Shown: positions 2,666 to 9,641, numbered from the stretch's first letter. The stretch: 64,000 nt of DNA from Oceanibacterium hippocampi (GCF_900172325.1 NZ_FWFR01000001.1:1054001-1118000), one strand, 5' to 3'. Numbers and translations: made by a program. Notes: generated by a model from the sequence alone, not told the origin.

Positions 2666-5446
2666 ATGTCTGTAAGGCTGGGTGACTTTTTGCGGGGCGT
2701 GTGCGCTCTCTTCGCGCTGTCGCTGACCTTCGCCGGCCCCCCTGCGCATGCCGAGGATGTCGGTGTCACGACCGCCGTCAACCCGAACGCCATGGGGCGG
2801 CCGCCGTCGCTGCCCGAACGCCTGCTCAACGCCGGCGTCACGATGGTCCGCAACGAGGCGGTCAATACCACCGAGGGCGGCCGGGCACAGCTTGTCTTCC
2901 TTGATGGCTCGGCGCTCACCGTCGGCCCCTCGTCCAATCTCGTCCTCGACGAATTCGTCTATGACTCGAAGGCCGATTCCGGCCGGATCCTGCTGAGCGC
3001 CACCAAGGGCGTGTTCCGGCTGGTCGGCGGGAAGATCAGCAAGAACACACCGATGCAGCTTCGCACCGGTACCGCGACGATCGGCATCCGCGGCGGCATC
3101 ATCGTCGCCCGCATCGTCGAGGAAGGCCCGCTGTTCGCCAAGTTCTTCTTCGGCAACGCCATGACCGTCACCTCGGGTGGCGTCACCAAGACCGCGACCC
3201 GACCCGGCTCGACGATCGTCGTTCCCTATCCCGGCGCGGAACCGAACGACCCGGAAATACTCGACGACGATGTCGACCTGGTCATCGCGCTCGACGATCT
3301 CGAGGCGGATCGCGGCAGCAAGGGCCTGTCCCGGAATCTCGGGATCGATGCCGCCCTGATGACCAGCGGCCTGGTCGATACGAGCAAACTTCCGACCATC
3401 GTCGAGGCCTCCACCGGCGTGCCGACGGAGCCGTCGAGCCCGGTCGACGAAAGCAAGTTCCCCTCCGGCCCGGCCAATCTCGTTCCGGTGCCGATCGGCC
3501 CCACGCCGAACCTCGGCGAGGAGGTACAGCAGCCGCCGATCATCATCGTAAGCCCGCCGCCGCCGCCACCTCCGCCGCCTCCGCCGCCACCGCCTCCTCC
3601 GCCGCCACCGCCGCCGCCGCCGCCGGCCGGGCTGACGCTGCCCGGGACCTTCGCGGGTTCGTTCCGCGTCGTCACCAGCGTGGCGTTCAACAACGCGGTC
3701 GTGACCAACGGTGTGCTGCGGGGCGAGCTCGACGGCAACCCGGCGAACGGCCCGGAACTGCTGCCGATCGCCGACGGGCCGTTCATCATCCAGAACTTCG
3801 ACCCGGCGCTTGGTACCGGCACGGTCAGCGGGAACGGGTTCCTGTCAGGCGGGCGTGACTTCTATTACTACAGCCTGACGTCCGATCTGGACGAATCGTC
3901 GATCCTCGCCTTCGGCGGCCGCCAGACCCCGGCGGCCAGTTTCCCGGTTGGCGGCGCGAGCCTCTACCAGACCCCGCTGAACGGGTTGTTCGGCGGCTTG
4001 TCCGCCGGTGGCGGCGCGAATCCCTTCCAGGCCCAGCAGAACGGTCCCGTCGGAGCGTTTCTGGGGGGCGCCGGCGACAGCGGCTATATCAACTGGAATG
4101 TCGGCGGCAATGCCGGCCAGCGCGCGGTCTCCTTCACCGGGGTGCAGATCTCCGGCCAGGGCGCGGGGCAGACGTCGTCGCTGACCGGGGTCGTCGGCCG
4201 GGTCCTGCTCGACAATGACGGTATCCCCTTCATTTCCGCTCGCCGTCATGCCTCGACCCGCTATGGCACGGACCGGCCGGTCACGACGATCACCGGCGGC
4301 GCGTCGAGCGTCGACGACGCCGACGGATTCGATTTCTTCGGCACCGGTGCGCCGAAGCTGTTCGCCTTCGACACGTCACGCACGGACGGCAGCGACAGCA
4401 CGCTGTCCAGCGGCATGGTCGAGCGCACGCCGGGCCAGCCCGACACGGTCAGCGATCCGCTGACCATTCTCACCGCCAGCGGGACCAGGGCGGCGCAGCC
4501 GATCGCCGACCAGTCGCTCGCCGGTTTCTCGGTCGGCTTCGTCGACCGCAGCGACGGCAACGGCGCGGTATTCGACCGCCGGGCCTTCTCCAGCAATTCC
4601 GACAACCCGCTCTCGGATCCGGAACCGGGCAATTTCACCATTTCGATCAACGGCGCGGAAAACCGCGTTGAGGTCGATGTCTTCGGCAGTGACCGGCTGG
4701 CCAACGGCGGGCCGGAGCAGGTCCGCATGGAACTCCAGTTCGGCGACGAAACCACGACCGTTCCCGGCCAGCCCGGCGGTAACAGCGCCATCTTGGACGC
4801 GCGCAACTTCCAGGCGCTCGACGACACGAACGGCCAGCAGAGAATCAACTACCAGAACGCGACCGATGTCTCGGCCCTGCTGACCACCGTCGATGCCAGC
4901 AATGGCGCCGGCGGCCTGGCGGGGTCGCTCCCGGCCGGCGTGACGCTCTGCACCTGCGAGTATCTCCGTTGGGGCTACTGGTCGGCGACCTTCAAGCGGC
5001 CGGACGGTACCGAGCACAATATCCATCTCGCCAACTGGGTGGCCGGCGATCTCGCCAGCCATGTGCAGATCTCCGGGCTCTCGGGTGCCACGGCGACGAT
5101 CTTCGACGGCCATGTCAGCGCGACGATCAAGGCGGGCAGCGGTGCCGGCCAGAAGGTCTACAACGCGATCGGCAACATGAACCTGAGCTACACCTTCGGC
5201 GCCACCCAGGCCGGCAACTGGACGATCAGCAATCTCGACGGCGCCAATTACACCGGTTCCGTCGCCGGTGTCTCCGGCAAGGCGCATCTGTTCGCCGGTA
5301 CCGGCGCGGGCGCCGGCCGCAGCGCGATCATCAACGGCGCCTTCTATCGCGGCGGCGGCGATCCGGCCGCCGCGGCCGGTGGCACGGCGCATGTCACCGG
5401 CCCGGCCTATGAAGGAATCGGCACGTTTGCCGTTCAGAAGCAGTAG
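2666..5446 (+). CDS. Secreted FecR-domain protein with poly-Pro linker and TbpB-like C-terminal domain
   Basis: 926 residues. A signal peptide ends near AHA-ED (about residue 30). A FecR domain follows (about 50-155, with AQLVFLDGSALTVGP and TATIGIRGGI). An acidic linker then carries 24 consecutive prolines (297-320). The rest is Gly/Asn/Asp-rich beta structure. The C-terminal 160 residues begin with CTCEYLRWGYWS (Cys762, Cys764), run through GHVSATI, SYTFG and NLDGANYTG, and close with GAFYRGGGDPAAAAGGTAHV and GTFAVQK. The pattern recalls the beta-barrel lobes of TbpB-like proteins. ATG 2666 has a GGGAG-type site; 2603 would spoil the signal peptide. It is paralogous to the protein at 6939 and lies upstream of a Slam-like gene, so it is probably exported cargo. 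It has no lipobox. Confidence 0.85.
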   Translation: MSVRLGDFLRGVCALFALSLTFAGPPAHAEDVGVTTAVNPNAMGRPPSLPERLLNAGVTMVRNEAVNTTEGGRAQLVFLDGSALTVGPSSNLVLDEFVYDSKADSGRILLSATKGVFRLVGGKISKNTPMQLRTGTATIGIRGGIIVARIVEEGPLFAKFFFGNAMTVTSGGVTKTATRPGSTIVVPYPGAEPNDPEILDDDVDLVIALDDLEADRGSKGLSRNLGIDAALMTSGLVDTSKLPTIVEASTGVPTEPSSPVDESKFPSGPANLVPVPIGPTPNLGEEVQQPPIIIVSPPPPPPPPPPPPPPPPPPPPPPPPAGLTLPGTFAGSFRVVTSVAFNNAVVTNGVLRGELDGNPANGPELLPIADGPFIIQNFDPALGTGTVSGNGFLSGGRDFYYYSLTSDLDESSILAFGGRQTPAASFPVGGASLYQTPLNGLFGGLSAGGGANPFQAQQNGPVGAFLGGAGDSGYINWNVGGNAGQRAVSFTGVQISGQGAGQTSSLTGVVGRVLLDNDGIPFISARRHASTRYGTDRPVTTITGGASSVDDADGFDFFGTGAPKLFAFDTSRTDGSDSTLSSGMVERTPGQPDTVSDPLTILTASGTRAAQPIADQSLAGFSVGFVDRSDGNGAVFDRRAFSSNSDNPLSDPEPGNFTISINGAENRVEVDVFGSDRLANGGPEQVRMELQFGDETTTVPGQPGGNSAILDARNFQALDDTNGQQRINYQNATDVSALLTTVDASNGAGGLAGSLPAGVTLCTCEYLRWGYWSATFKRPDGTEHNIHLANWVAGDLASHVQISGLSGATATIFDGHVSATIKAGSGAGQKVYNAIGNMNLSYTFGATQAGNWTISNLDGANYTGSVAGVSGKAHLFAGTGAGAGRSAIINGAFYRGGGDPAAAAGGTAHVTGPAYEGIGTFAVQKQ
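3554..3625 (+). repeat. CCG/CCA/CCT microsatellite encoding 24 prolines
   Basis: Twenty-four Pro codons in a row form a stiff spacer between the FecR domain and the beta-rich surface part. The array is mixed in codon use (CCG, CCA, CCT), which would limit slippage. The paralogue at 6939 lacks it and has a Pro/Ala/Gln-rich linker at the same place. Confidence 0.9.
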
Positions 5447-5469
5447 GTGCAGACTCTCGGCGCGGAGAT

Positions 5470-5501
5470 TCTGCCGTTCCTGGCGACGGCAGGATTTTGT
5501 T
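5470..5501 (+). terminator. Terminator-like hairpin after the first FecR gene
   Basis: CTGCCGT (5471-5477) pairs with ACGGCAG (5486-5492) around an 8-base loop, followed by GATTTTGTT. The T-tract is short, so it may be a partial terminator that lowers expression of the downstream TPR-barrel gene relative to the secreted protein. Confidence 0.5.
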
Positions 5502-5545
5502 AAACATATCGTTCTATCAATGACCTGTAGTTGCGAGCGGAAACG

Positions 5546-6913
5546 ATGAACCTTAAAAACGTCGGCCGCACGGCCGCTCTCTCGGTCCTCCTGCTCGCAA
5601 CGGCGATAGTGGCAAGTTCGGAACATGCCGTGGCGCAACAGGTCGAGACAGCACCCAGCGAGGAATTGAAGCGCGCGTTCGATCGCGCCTTCCAGGAGGT
5701 GATTGCCGACCCGACCGATCTCGACAAGGCCTTCGAGTTCGCCGCGATCGCGGTGCAGGTCGGCGACCTGGAAGCGGCCATCGCCACCCTCGAACGGATG
5801 CTGCTGCTCAATCCCGATCTGCCGCGCGTCCGCCTCGAACTCGGCGTTCTCTATTTCCGGCTCGGCTCCTACATCCTTGCCCGCCACTATTTCGAGCGCG
5901 CCCTCGAAGGCGACGACGTGCCGTCCGACGTCACGGAGCGGGTGAACAGCTATCTTGCCGAGATCGACCGCCGGACCGAACGCTCGCAGTTCGCCGGCAC
6001 CGCCTTCTTCGGCTTCCGCTACCAGACGAACGCCAATGCCGGGCCTTCGGACCGCAACGTGAAGGCGGCCGGTTTCGACGCCACGCTCGACGACCAGTTT
6101 ACCGAGCAAGCGGACGTGAATGCCTTCGCCGTCGGCAACTTCCGCCATACCTACGATTTCCGTACCCAGGACGGCTCCTTCATGGAGACCCTGGCGCTTG
6201 CCTATTTCTCGCGCCAGCGTGACGAGGACGCGGTCAACGTGTTCCTTCTCGAGGGTTCGACCGGGCCGCGCTTCCCGATCTTCGAGGAAGCCTTCGAGGG
6301 CAGCTCCTGGCGTCCGTTCGTGCAGGGCTCCTACGTCGACCTGGGCAACGAGAATTACTTCTACAGCTACGGCGCGGGGGTCGACGGTGTCCTGCAGCCG
6401 ACCCCGGACCTGCAGTTCGACGGCACGCTCTCGGGCCTTGTGCGGCGTTACTGGGACCGCTCGCCCCGGCCGACGGCGCGCGACGAGAATGCCCAGGAAG
6501 TCACGGCGACGCTCGGCGTCCGGTATCGCCCGCTGCCCGACCTGGAAGTCGGCGGCTACAGCAGTTTCACCGTCGAGGACGCCGACGAGGACGAGCATTC
6601 GAACTGGGAAGGCGAAGTCGGGGCCAGCGCGACGCTGACCTACGATTCACCGCTCACGATGCTGTCCGGACGCTGGTCGTCCTCGCTCAGCGCCGCCTTC
6701 GCCGCCAGCAACTATTTCCGGCCGGATCCGGACGTCGATCCGACGACCCGGCGCCGGGACCGAGAGTATCGCCTGAACGTGACGACCGCCGTTCCGCTCA
6801 ATGACGCGCTGTCGCTGGTCGTCACCGCCGGTGTGAGCCGGGTTAACTCGACCCTTCCGAATTTCGAGTACGACAACGAGTTTGTCACAATGGGGGCCGC
6901 CTGGCGGTTCTGA
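5546..6913 (+). CDS. TPR plus outer-membrane beta-barrel protein, Slam/DUF560-like
   Basis: 455 residues. A signal peptide (cleavage near AVA-QQ) leads into an N-terminal alpha-helical TPR region (about 40-135: DLEAAIATLERMLLLNPDLP, then RVRLELGVLYFRLGSY), followed by about 310 residues of alternating aromatic/hydrophobic beta strands ending in MGAAWRF, a typical barrel-terminal Phe. TPR followed by a C-terminal barrel, at about this length, is the architecture of Slam proteins (DUF560), which move lipoproteins and TbpB-like cargo across the outer membrane (type XI secretion). The gene lies between two paralogous secreted FecR/TbpB-like genes, 99 bases after one and 25 bases before the other, as expected for a transporter with its cargo. 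ATG 5546 is preferred to TTG 5531. Assignment to DUF560 is from architecture and context, not a profile search. Confidence 0.75.
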   Translation: MNLKNVGRTAALSVLLLATAIVASSEHAVAQQVETAPSEELKRAFDRAFQEVIADPTDLDKAFEFAAIAVQVGDLEAAIATLERMLLLNPDLPRVRLELGVLYFRLGSYILARHYFERALEGDDVPSDVTERVNSYLAEIDRRTERSQFAGTAFFGFRYQTNANAGPSDRNVKAAGFDATLDDQFTEQADVNAFAVGNFRHTYDFRTQDGSFMETLALAYFSRQRDEDAVNVFLLEGSTGPRFPIFEEAFEGSSWRPFVQGSYVDLGNENYFYSYGAGVDGVLQPTPDLQFDGTLSGLVRRYWDRSPRPTARDENAQEVTATLGVRYRPLPDLEVGGYSSFTVEDADEDEHSNWEGEVGASATLTYDSPLTMLSGRWSSSLSAAFAASNYFRPDPDVDPTTRRRDREYRLNVTTAVPLNDALSLVVTAGVSRVNSTLPNFEYDNEFVTMGAAWRF

Positions 6914-6938
6914 CCGTGCGGGCGGCGTAGTAGGTGTA

Positions 6939-9641
6939 ATGAAACTGAACCCTCTGCCGCTTGCCGTCTGTACCGCGCTTCTCTGCACCCTTGCCGTTCC
7001 GGCCCACGCCAACAGGGTCGGGGTCGCCGCCGCCGTCAATCCACAGGCGACCGGCACGCCGCCGACGCTCGAAACGCGCATCCTCGTACCGCGCGACGAC
7101 ATGACCCAGAACGAGCGGGTCCAGACCCAGGAGAACGGCCGCACGCAGCTGCTGTTCCTCGACGGCTCGGCGCTTACCGTCGGTCCGAACTCCGATATCG
7201 TGCTGGACGAGTTCGTCTACGATCCGGACGCGGGCAGCGGCAGGATCGTGCTCAGCGCCACCAAGGGGCTGTTTCGCCTGGTCGGCGGCAAGATCAGCAA
7301 GAAGACGCCGATGCTGATCAAGACACCGAGCGCGACCATCGGCATCCGCGGCGGGATCATGGTCGTTCGGGTCCGCGAAGACGGGACGATCACCTCGAAG
7401 TTCTTCTTCGGCGAAGAGATGTTTGTCGAATCGGGCGGCACGCGCCAGGTCGCCGTGCGCCCCAATTCGACCATCGATGTGACCGAGTTGGGGGGTATCC
7501 CGCAGGAGCCCCAGGTGGTGCCCGACGACATGCAGCTCCGGCTGTCGCTGGATGAGCTCGAGGCCGATCGCAACCGCGACGGAGAGGAGCCGGCCCCGCT
7601 GGTCGAAGTCGCGCTGGCCGGCAGCGGCATGCCGGCCCAGGGCTCCGAGTTGCCGCCTGAGGATCTTGCCGGCAACGCGCCGCCGGCCGAGGACAAGGCC
7701 GCCAACGGCGACGACGGATCGGCGACCGCGCCGCCGCCGGACCCGGCCCAGAGCGCCCAGCCGCAGGAAGGCCAGCAACAGATCGCGACCGGTTCGGTGA
7801 GCGGCGGGATCAGCGTGCCGGGGCCGTTTTCCGGCCGCGTCCGCACCGACCGTTCCGTCGATTTCTCCAATCCTCCGGCGGACCCGACCGGCGACGACCA
7901 GCCGTTCCAGAACGCCTTCGTCAAGAATGGCTTCCTGATCGGCGAGTTGGACGGCGAACTGGCCAACGGGCCCGAGCGTCTGCCGTTCAAGGCCGGCGAG
8001 TTCCCGATCGACAGTTTCGACGCGGCGGCCGATGGCGGGCTGATTTCCGGCAAGGGTTTCGTGTCCGCCGATTTCGACTTCTTCGTCTATGCGCTGATCG
8101 ATCAGGACATCGAGCAGGACCATATCGCCGTGGTCGGCGGTGTTCCGACGCCGACAGCGAAGTTCCCGACGTCGGGCACGACCTACTACGAGGCCCGCCA
8201 GGATTTCCTGACCGGCTCGAACGTGCTCTTCCTGAACGACCAGAACGGCGGCGCGCTGATCACCAATCCGCCGGAGACGCGCGGCTTCATCGACTGGAAG
8301 ATCGCCGGCAACAATGGCCAGCGGGCGCTCGGCCTCTCGACCTTCTTCATTTCCGGGCAGGGCGCCGGCCAGACCTCCGCGCTTTCGGGCATCGTCGGAG
8401 AGGTCCTTGCCGACGGCTCCGGCCGGCCGCATATCGCCGGCCGCCAGAAAGCCTCGGCGCGGCTGAACTCGACCGGCGATCCGATCTTCACCTTCGGGTC
8501 TGTTTCGTCGGCCGACGACGCGCTCGGCAACGACTTCTTCGGCAAGAACGGCCCGTCGCTGTTCGCGCTCGATTCCGCCGAAGTCAGCGTCACCGATGTC
8601 GAACTCGGACGCGGTATCGACACGCTGGTGTCGAACCAGTTTCCCGACCCGCCCTACGATCCGTTCACGGTCGTGCAGAAGACCACGGGACCGGCCCTCG
8701 GGCCGACCACCAACGCCTCATTGTCGGGCTTCAGCGCCGGCTTCTTCGAAAGCATCGATCCGAGTGGCAACCCGTTCCAGCGGCTTGCCTTCCTCTCCTC
8801 CGACCAGACCGCGACGGTGCCGGACCCGACCAATTTCACGATCGATGTCGGGGCGGCGGAGAACCGCGTCGAGGTGCATATCAATGCCAGCGACGGCTTC
8901 GTCATCGGCAGTGCCGGCTCGGTCTCGGTAAATCTCGTTCTCGGCGACACGGTCGGGGCATCGCCGGGCGCGCCGGGCGGCAACAGCGCGATCCTCGACG
9001 ACCGGACCTTCCAGGCCCTCGACGATCCGACAAGCCCGCAGGCCGTGAACGGCAGCGGGATCATCGACGCCGGGCTCCGGACCGTCGATGCCGGCCGCGA
9101 CGCGGGCAATTTCCGCAACGTGCTGCCGGGCGGCGTCGCCCTCTGCAGTTGCGAGTACCTGCGCTGGGGCTACTGGTCGGGCGCGCTGTCGGAATCGAGC
9201 AACACCCTGCACGGCGTCCACCTGGCGAACTGGGTCGCCGGAAAGCTCGCCACGAACGCCCAGATCCAGGGGCTCGCCGGTGGCGTCGCGACGATCTACG
9301 GCGGCCATGTCAGCGCGACGATCCGCAACGGCGCACCGGGCAACCAGAACGTCTATACGGCGGTCGGTTCAATGAACATGAACTACACCTTCGGCGGGAC
9401 CCAGGCCGGGACCTGGACGATCGGCAATCTGGACGGCGCCAGCTATTCCGGCGCCGTGTCGAGCATCGGCGGCAGCCGCCAGGTCTTCCGGGGCACAGGC
9501 ACCGGCGCCGGGCGAAGCGTGACCGTTCAGGGCGCGTTCTTCCAGGGCGGCGGGGTTCCGAACGCCGCCGCCGGCGGCACCGCGCACATCGCCGGCGCCA
9601 ACTACGAAGGCGCCGGCGCCTTCGCGATGCAGAAGAACTGA
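6939..9641 (+). CDS. Second secreted FecR-domain protein with TbpB-like C-terminal domain
   Basis: 900 residues, paralogous to the protein at 2666 along its whole length. A signal peptide ends at AHA-NR. A FecR domain (TQLLFLDGSALTVGPNSD, ATIGIRGGIMV) and an Ala/Pro/Gln/Glu linker without the long proline run are followed by the same beta-rich body and C-terminal domain: CSCEYLRWGYWS (Cys736, Cys738), GHVSATI, NYTFGG, NLDGASYSG, GAFFQGGG and GAFAMQK. Conservation is highest in the FecR part and the last 170 residues. The ATG at 6939 lies 25 bases after the Slam-like stop, so the two are probably co-transcribed. FecR domains are usually periplasmic signalling or peptide-binding modules; here the domain sits at the N terminus of a long secreted protein, which is unusual. 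Confidence 0.85.
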   Translation: MKLNPLPLAVCTALLCTLAVPAHANRVGVAAAVNPQATGTPPTLETRILVPRDDMTQNERVQTQENGRTQLLFLDGSALTVGPNSDIVLDEFVYDPDAGSGRIVLSATKGLFRLVGGKISKKTPMLIKTPSATIGIRGGIMVVRVREDGTITSKFFFGEEMFVESGGTRQVAVRPNSTIDVTELGGIPQEPQVVPDDMQLRLSLDELEADRNRDGEEPAPLVEVALAGSGMPAQGSELPPEDLAGNAPPAEDKAANGDDGSATAPPPDPAQSAQPQEGQQQIATGSVSGGISVPGPFSGRVRTDRSVDFSNPPADPTGDDQPFQNAFVKNGFLIGELDGELANGPERLPFKAGEFPIDSFDAAADGGLISGKGFVSADFDFFVYALIDQDIEQDHIAVVGGVPTPTAKFPTSGTTYYEARQDFLTGSNVLFLNDQNGGALITNPPETRGFIDWKIAGNNGQRALGLSTFFISGQGAGQTSALSGIVGEVLADGSGRPHIAGRQKASARLNSTGDPIFTFGSVSSADDALGNDFFGKNGPSLFALDSAEVSVTDVELGRGIDTLVSNQFPDPPYDPFTVVQKTTGPALGPTTNASLSGFSAGFFESIDPSGNPFQRLAFLSSDQTATVPDPTNFTIDVGAAENRVEVHINASDGFVIGSAGSVSVNLVLGDTVGASPGAPGGNSAILDDRTFQALDDPTSPQAVNGSGIIDAGLRTVDAGRDAGNFRNVLPGGVALCSCEYLRWGYWSGALSESSNTLHGVHLANWVAGKLATNAQIQGLAGGVATIYGGHVSATIRNGAPGNQNVYTAVGSMNMNYTFGGTQAGTWTIGNLDGASYSGAVSSIGGSRQVFRGTGTGAGRSVTVQGAFFQGGGVPNAAAGGTAHIAGANYEGAGAFAMQKN

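Follow-up and report, generated by a model that had tools for sequence, protein, structure and literature searches.

Slam, an outer-membrane protein of type XI secretion, combines a TPR domain with a predicted 14-strand barrel (PMC5449769) and acts as a translocon for unfolded TbpB with the aid of Skp (PMC9090332). Unlipidated (soluble) cargos of these systems, the TbpBBDsol proteins such as hemophilin and HrpC, are also known (PMC8406197). According to surveys of type XI secretion (PMC8406197, PMC12282271), most environmental DUF560 clusters have neither characterised members nor known cargo; in the type XI literature searched FecR was not mentioned and no FecR-DUF560 link was found. NsrA is reported to be an outer-membrane receptor that activates the adenylate cyclase CyaK (PMC7529298).

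The locus described here belongs to Oceanibacterium hippocampi (GCF_900172325.1, NZ_FWFR01000001.1:1054001-1118000); the whole stretch of 64,000 nucleotides that was analysed is called the window, and positions are counted from its first letter. With slightly more confidence than doubt, it is read as a diverged lineage of type XI (Slam) systems in which TbpB-like proteins anchored by FecR would be displayed, with cAMP signalling as the probable output. It comprises three same-strand genes in the order A-B-C, separated by gaps of 99 bp (A-B) and 25 bp (B-C), and these three ORFs agree with the cargo-transporter-cargo order that a first-pass annotation, made from the sequence alone, had proposed for positions 2666-9641. 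The features of the locus are as follows.

2666..5446, plus strand: gene A, FecR and TbpB-like secreted protein of 926 aa; putative signal peptide of the signal peptidase I type, without lipobox
2861..3103, plus strand: FecR domain of A (PF04773; E 1.9e-7, 31.8 bits)
4949..4984, plus strand: CTCEYLRWGYWS block of A, ahead of the C-terminal domain
5021..5431, plus strand: C-terminal TbpB/fHbp/NHBA-like domain of A
5478..5494, plus strand: weak terminator-like hairpin in the A-B gap
5546..6913, plus strand: gene B, TPR and 14-strand outer-membrane barrel protein of 455 aa, Slam/DUF560-like
5660..5977, plus strand: periplasmic TPR helices of B, residues 39-144 (Pfam, AlphaFold)
5984..6910, plus strand: 14-strand barrel of B, residues 147-455, with terminal Phe
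6939..9641, plus strand: gene C, FecR and TbpB-like secreted protein of 900 aa, paralogue of A
7104..7571, plus strand: FecR/cell-surface-signalling fold of C, residues 56-211 (PupR 6ovk, Z 15.5; FecR 36.7 bits)
7815..9638, plus strand: two-lobed TbpB-like body of C, residues 293-900 (model)
9144..9179, plus strand: CSCEYLRWGYWS block of C
9216..9626, plus strand: C-terminal TbpB/fHbp/NHBA-like barrel domain of C

ORFs were called without a gene finder and neighbouring genes were detected with purpose-built profiles. The signal peptides previously proposed for all three proteins were recognised by inspection as hydrophobic stretches ending in AxA (AHA in A and C, AVA in B). The scan for terminator-type sites gave 7, against a shuffle mean of 4.9, including the weak one in the A-B gap, and the promoter scan of the locus gave nothing useful. 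A second copy of the module occurs in the same genome on contig C16 at about 181.6-184.3 kb (L021:6577-9277), where a barrel 41% identical to B is accompanied by one shorter FecR protein with the same C-terminal domain.

Protein B had been described as a TPR protein with a C-terminal barrel ending in Phe, a description upheld by the Pfam match to TPR_9 (43.3 bits, cut-off 35), by the terminal Phe and by the AlphaFold model, which consists of a helical TPR part and 14 long strands (mean pLDDT 88.8, mostly >90 in the barrel strands). By Foldseek and structure comparison the solved folds nearest to the barrel are CymA (Z 22.1), OmpG and FadL, which are 14-strand channels; a solved Slam structure was not among the structural matches. 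Pfam SlipAM (PF04575) matches neither B at E <= 1 nor any other protein of its genome, and the homology to Slam therefore needed profile comparison. Among 37 relatives of B, SlipAM was matched by 14 at E <= 1 (best 1.1e-5) and TPR_Slam by 25; in a sample of ten relatives listed to E 0.01 one showed SlipAM, below the cut-off. When the B family was aligned by hhalign to a canonical reference profile built from 17 SlipAM proteins of other genomes, the barrel alone scored 99.8% over 290/311 columns and the full-length proteins 100%, TPR part included. Two proteins are matched by both the B-family profile and PF04575 (G090:C9:55691, E 2.0e-25 and 8.4e-28; G143:C1:1830423, E 8.6e-9 and 3.6e-9). The profile alignment and the shared matches thus make B, as judged from its sequence, a diverged Slam/DUF560-type homologue beyond the present Pfam boundary, as the DUF560 affinity suggested earlier would have it; since the Pfam cut-off is a database convention, B is classed among diverged homologues and not as a Pfam member. 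The barrel tree places the FecR-associated barrels in one group that leaves out most canonical SlipAM barrels. A first barrel alignment was too diverse, and a narrower one was used for the family scan.

Proteins A and C were also correctly recognised as paralogues of about 900 residues with an N-terminal FecR domain: PF04773 is matched above its cut-off of 24 bits in both (31.8 in A, 36.7 in C), and the two are 48% identical over the full alignment and 59% over the last 175 residues. No N-terminal domain other than FecR was found in either by Pfam, and the cytoplasmic anti-sigma part and inner-membrane anchor are absent from both, the N-terminus being a signal peptide as judged by eye. A lipobox or signal peptidase II site occurs in 0/62 related FecR proteins, in line with the missing lipobox pointed out before, so that these FecR proteins are not surface lipoproteins. 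C was modelled by AlphaFold (mean pLDDT 77.8) as the FecR domain followed by a disordered linker and then a body of two lobes. Its FecR domain (residues 56-211) resembles the signalling domain of PupR (6ovk; Z 15.5, rmsd 2.5, 138 aligned) and the anti-sigma factor BDI_1681 (Z 15.3). In addition, residues 24-120 match 5ix9 (Z 9.9, 75/76 residues), which comes from the N-terminal part of an ice-binding adhesin and is titled as a cell-surface anchoring domain; an anchoring role for the FecR region is compatible with this likeness.

The likeness of the C-terminus to the TbpB barrel domain, suspected earlier, was recovered by profile and model alike. A profile built from the last 175 residues of 32 proteins and run against all PDB sequences, retrieved NHBA (1.1e-5) and also fHbp and TbpB, and its significant solved relatives are all surface proteins; taken singly, 18/32 members match TbpB_B_D and 16/32 FHBP_C (E <= 1). 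In the model of C, residues 594-900 resemble the TbpB C-lobe (Z 12.9), fHbp (10.5) and NHBA (10.5), and the top 18 Foldseek matches are all TbpB. As a control, the lipobox proteins encoded beside SlipAM barrels in the same bacterial class, which carry no FecR, matched the same C-terminal domain at 98.9%, and the FecR proteins of a sister branch gave no match (hhalign, 8%). A hidden TbpB-like part in the FecR proteins scored as lacking one was likewise not supported at this hhalign value. The ends of three such proteins (L226, L029, L225) show a faint GxAxF / DFxxRT pattern; it may represent a TbpB-like domain that has diverged strongly, for which hhalign gives no support.

The GAFY/AGGTAH/GxFAxQK pattern noticed at the C-terminus of A and C is present and recurs in relatives; a pattern scan starting from A alone returned no relatives. 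The CxCEYLRWGYWS block, called conserved in the first-pass annotation, is present in A and C and recurs as well, but its cysteine spacing is not fixed: the Cys-pair block is specific to A/C-type proteins, relatives show CxC, CxxC or no pair, and the stretch shared with TbpB starts about 40 residues after it. The Cys pair (window 4949-4984 and 9144-9179) precedes a WGxW motif and may perhaps form a disulfide. Other arrangements of these domains were also observed. Giant FecR proteins with the C-terminal domain twice stand before a CHASE2 cyclase in two loci (L095:8107-13062, L107:6982-13077), and at L053:8395-10133 two neighbouring ORFs in different frames encode FecR and the C-terminal domain separately, either a split gene or a frameshift.

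The scan of named genomes returned 69 barrel loci, in Reyranella, Enhydrobacter, Nisaea, Rhizobium, Mesorhizobium, Pleomorphomonas, Aquibium and other genera. Sixty-four alphaproteobacterial loci with enough flank, pooled from several searches, were evaluated; they are not independent samples. In 52/64 of them, from many families, the barrel has a FecR gene nearby, nearly always directly downstream on the same strand; together with the second module copy in the O. hippocampi genome, this places the arrangement beyond chance. The FecR partner has a TbpB-like C-terminus in 38 of the evaluated loci and no detectable TbpB-like domain in about a dozen barrel loci, which indicates that this domain is not the sole link to the barrel. 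In a class survey of 385 genomes, 32 had a strong match to the C-terminal domain and 32/32 of these had a barrel (Fisher p 8.6e-28, a value that ignores phylogeny and genome size). Of the strong matches themselves, 26/46 were found within 8 kb of a barrel, so the expectation that homologues are accompanied by a barrel gene holds. Marine genomes with a lone barrel carry FecR-TbpB genes unlinked; in one of them (G483) a single barrel coexists with six scattered FecR-TbpB genes (L199-L204), none adjoining it; an exporter with several cargos accounts for this more readily than a fixed receptor complex. Lone barrels of related genomes (e.g. L041, L043, L044) have a gene neighbourhood that is conserved but without FecR.

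A link between the barrel/FecR pair and CHASE2 adenylate cyclases is new here; neither this link nor the FecR partners without a TbpB-like part appeared in the first-pass annotation. Such a cyclase is encoded in cis in 22/64 barrel loci, the search being confined to some 12 kb around the barrel in most of them; loci of Mesorhizobium soli, Shinella and Pleomorphomonas are examples of an adjoining cyclase. At the genome level, a CHASE2 cyclase of the relevant type occurs in 68/69 genomes with a FecR-type barrel versus 85/316 others, in a comparison that ignores phylogeny and genome size. The idea that this CHASE2 subtype is exclusive to barrel genomes was rejected because 85 barrel-less genomes have it; the dependence runs from barrel to cyclase. 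Distant relatives of the barrel stand beside a FecR gene without TbpB-like part and a CHASE2 cyclase in seven loci (L224, L225, L227, L228, L229, L235, L240), and Crp-family regulators (cNMP_binding plus HTH_Crp_2) lie near this set in three (L224, L225, L228). The earlier proposal that FecR acts as a signalling module gains support from these linked cyclases. No CHASE2 cyclase was found beside the O. hippocampi locus in the stretch searched around the barrel. The closest one in this genome is unlinked, on contig C7 (G000:C7), and groups with cyclases of barrel loci (support 0.95 with L223 and L227), a placement that is suggestive only given the few outgroups in the tree. The same genome also contains a small FecR gene that overlaps the gene for a CHASE2 cyclase (L125:3907-6595, C6) and two tandem FecR genes (L126:5674-7597, C16), in both cases with no barrel seen in the stretch.

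According to the favoured reading, B would serve as a Slam/DUF560-type outer-membrane translocon with A and C as its partner proteins, whose C-terminal TbpB-like barrel it would recognise and whose two-lobed TbpB-like body it would pass to the cell surface. The FecR domain would occupy the position that the lipid anchor has in other type XI cargos and would most likely remain on the periplasmic side, lying against the TPR domain of B, where it may both hold the protein and signal. The output is probably cAMP from an inner-membrane CHASE2 cyclase, since many relatives encode the barrel/FecR pair with such a cyclase and sometimes a Crp regulator; in O. hippocampi the likely candidate is the unlinked one. 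Points that weigh against this reading are the missing cyclase neighbour at the O. hippocampi locus, the FecR partners with no detectable TbpB-like domain, the six FecR-TbpB proteins that a single barrel would serve in G483, and the score of B below the SlipAM cut-off. A more specific version, somewhat short of an even chance, is that the cargo is held half-way, with its body extruded and FecR docked on the TPRs in the periplasm, so that one protein reaching from surface to periplasm switches the CHASE2 cyclase. If so, a secretion system would have been turned into an outer-membrane-to-cAMP sensor in which FecR replaces the lipid anchor.

Several of these findings would be accommodated by plain type XI secretion, in which B exports A and C whole, FecR included, to the surface or the medium: the homology that links B to Slam and the C-terminal domain to TbpB/fHbp/NHBA, the one barrel and six dispersed FecR-TbpB genes of G483, the existence of unlipidated type XI cargo (PMC8406197) and the occurrence of FecR in proteins named surface adhesins (the Lsa33/LipL45 models match weakly). 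At the N-terminus FecR would then serve for binding or structure only, and the association with the cyclase would reflect regulation of the module, not signalling through it. This explanation is considered unlikely, as FecR is constant in nearly all partners, FecR genes lacking the TbpB-like part still lie beside a barrel and a cyclase, and a CHASE2 cyclase is present in 68/69 barrel genomes.

A receptor of the NsrA type that exports nothing, with a ligand-sensing barrel B acting through the TPRs on periplasmic FecR and the CHASE2 cyclase while the TbpB-like body stays in the periplasm, appears quite improbable. It is in keeping with NsrA itself, which has FecR, TPR and barrel directly upstream of the CHASE2 cyclase CyaK and is a reported outer-membrane receptor (PMC7529298), with the cyclase or Crp genes that adjoin many barrel/FecR pairs and with the FecR partners that have no TbpB-like domain. 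However, the barrel profile is silent at NsrA, so that the barrels are not detectably related; the significant solved relatives of the C-terminal domain are all surface proteins; and the genomes with strong matches to this domain all have a barrel even if unlinked, with six such proteins for one barrel in G483. It is scarcely credible, finally, that the adjacency means nothing and B is an ordinary porin-like barrel lying between two FecR proteins by accident. Its closest solved barrels are indeed porins and channels (CymA, OmpG, FadL; Foldseek), but the pair persists in 52/64 loci from many families and occurs a second time in this genome, and B is homologous to Slam over its full length including the TPR part.

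The locus offers a candidate cargo family for one environmental DUF560 lineage and a possible protein substitute for the lipid anchor. It also ties a surface-export barrel genetically to cAMP signalling, alongside one experimentally studied case (NsrA-CyaK), and the cyclase-joined set in related bacteria suggests a surface-export system rewired as an envelope-spanning sensor.

Among the known systems, the FecA-FecR-FecI and PupB-PupR signalling pathways share with A and C the fold of the FecR/CSS domain (PupR, Z 15.5), whereas in A and C a signal peptide replaces the anti-sigma domain and membrane helix of the FecR/PupR regulators; no TonB-dependent receptor or sigma gene was recognised at this locus. 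The CHASE2 cyclase cluster of Campylobacterota includes a phosphodiesterase and, unlike the present family, has no reported DUF560 or TbpB link (PMC9239204).

Another parallel is found on pSymB of Sinorhizobium meliloti. There, immediately upstream of CyaK (CHASE2 plus cyclase), one chain unites a FecR domain (57.3 bits) with TPRs and a barrel (L117:2289-7837). This gene is taken to be NsrA from its position before the CHASE2 cyclase and from the published name, the plasmid record being without annotation. NsrA resembles the split barrel/FecR module in fused form: both combine FecR, TPR and an outer-membrane barrel, parts that are spread here over two chains, with a CHASE2 adenylate cyclase. 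It differs from A-B-C in its fused chain, larger barrel, lack of a TbpB-like domain and cyclase in cis. The barrel-family profile had no match at the NsrA locus and no barrel relative on pSymB; SMc02177, SMc02178 and SMb20495 of S. meliloti were a lead only and were dropped, the pSymB search having returned no barrel relative.

Soluble type XI cargos resemble A and C in being unlipidated proteins of the signal peptidase I type with a C-terminal TbpB-like barrel; they are small single-barrel-domain proteins, in contrast to the roughly 900 aa and FecR domain of A and C, and no heme or TonB genes were seen at this locus. With the TbpB/fHbp/NHBA cargos, A and C have in common the C-terminal barrel domain, the two-lobed body (in the model) and a gene adjacent to a barrel, yet in A and C FecR takes the place of the lipid anchor, a lipobox is lacking and a Cys-pair/WGxW block precedes the C-terminal domain. 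B itself is closest to Slam/NilB, the type XI outer-membrane proteins (DUF560/SlipAM, PF04575), with which it shares a periplasmic TPR domain, a 14-strand barrel, end-to-end profile similarity and TbpB-like cargo encoded alongside. It is set apart from them by its position below the Pfam cut-off and on a FecR-associated branch away from most canonical SlipAM barrels, by partners that carry FecR and are not lipoproteins, and by the linkage of its relatives to adenylate cyclase.
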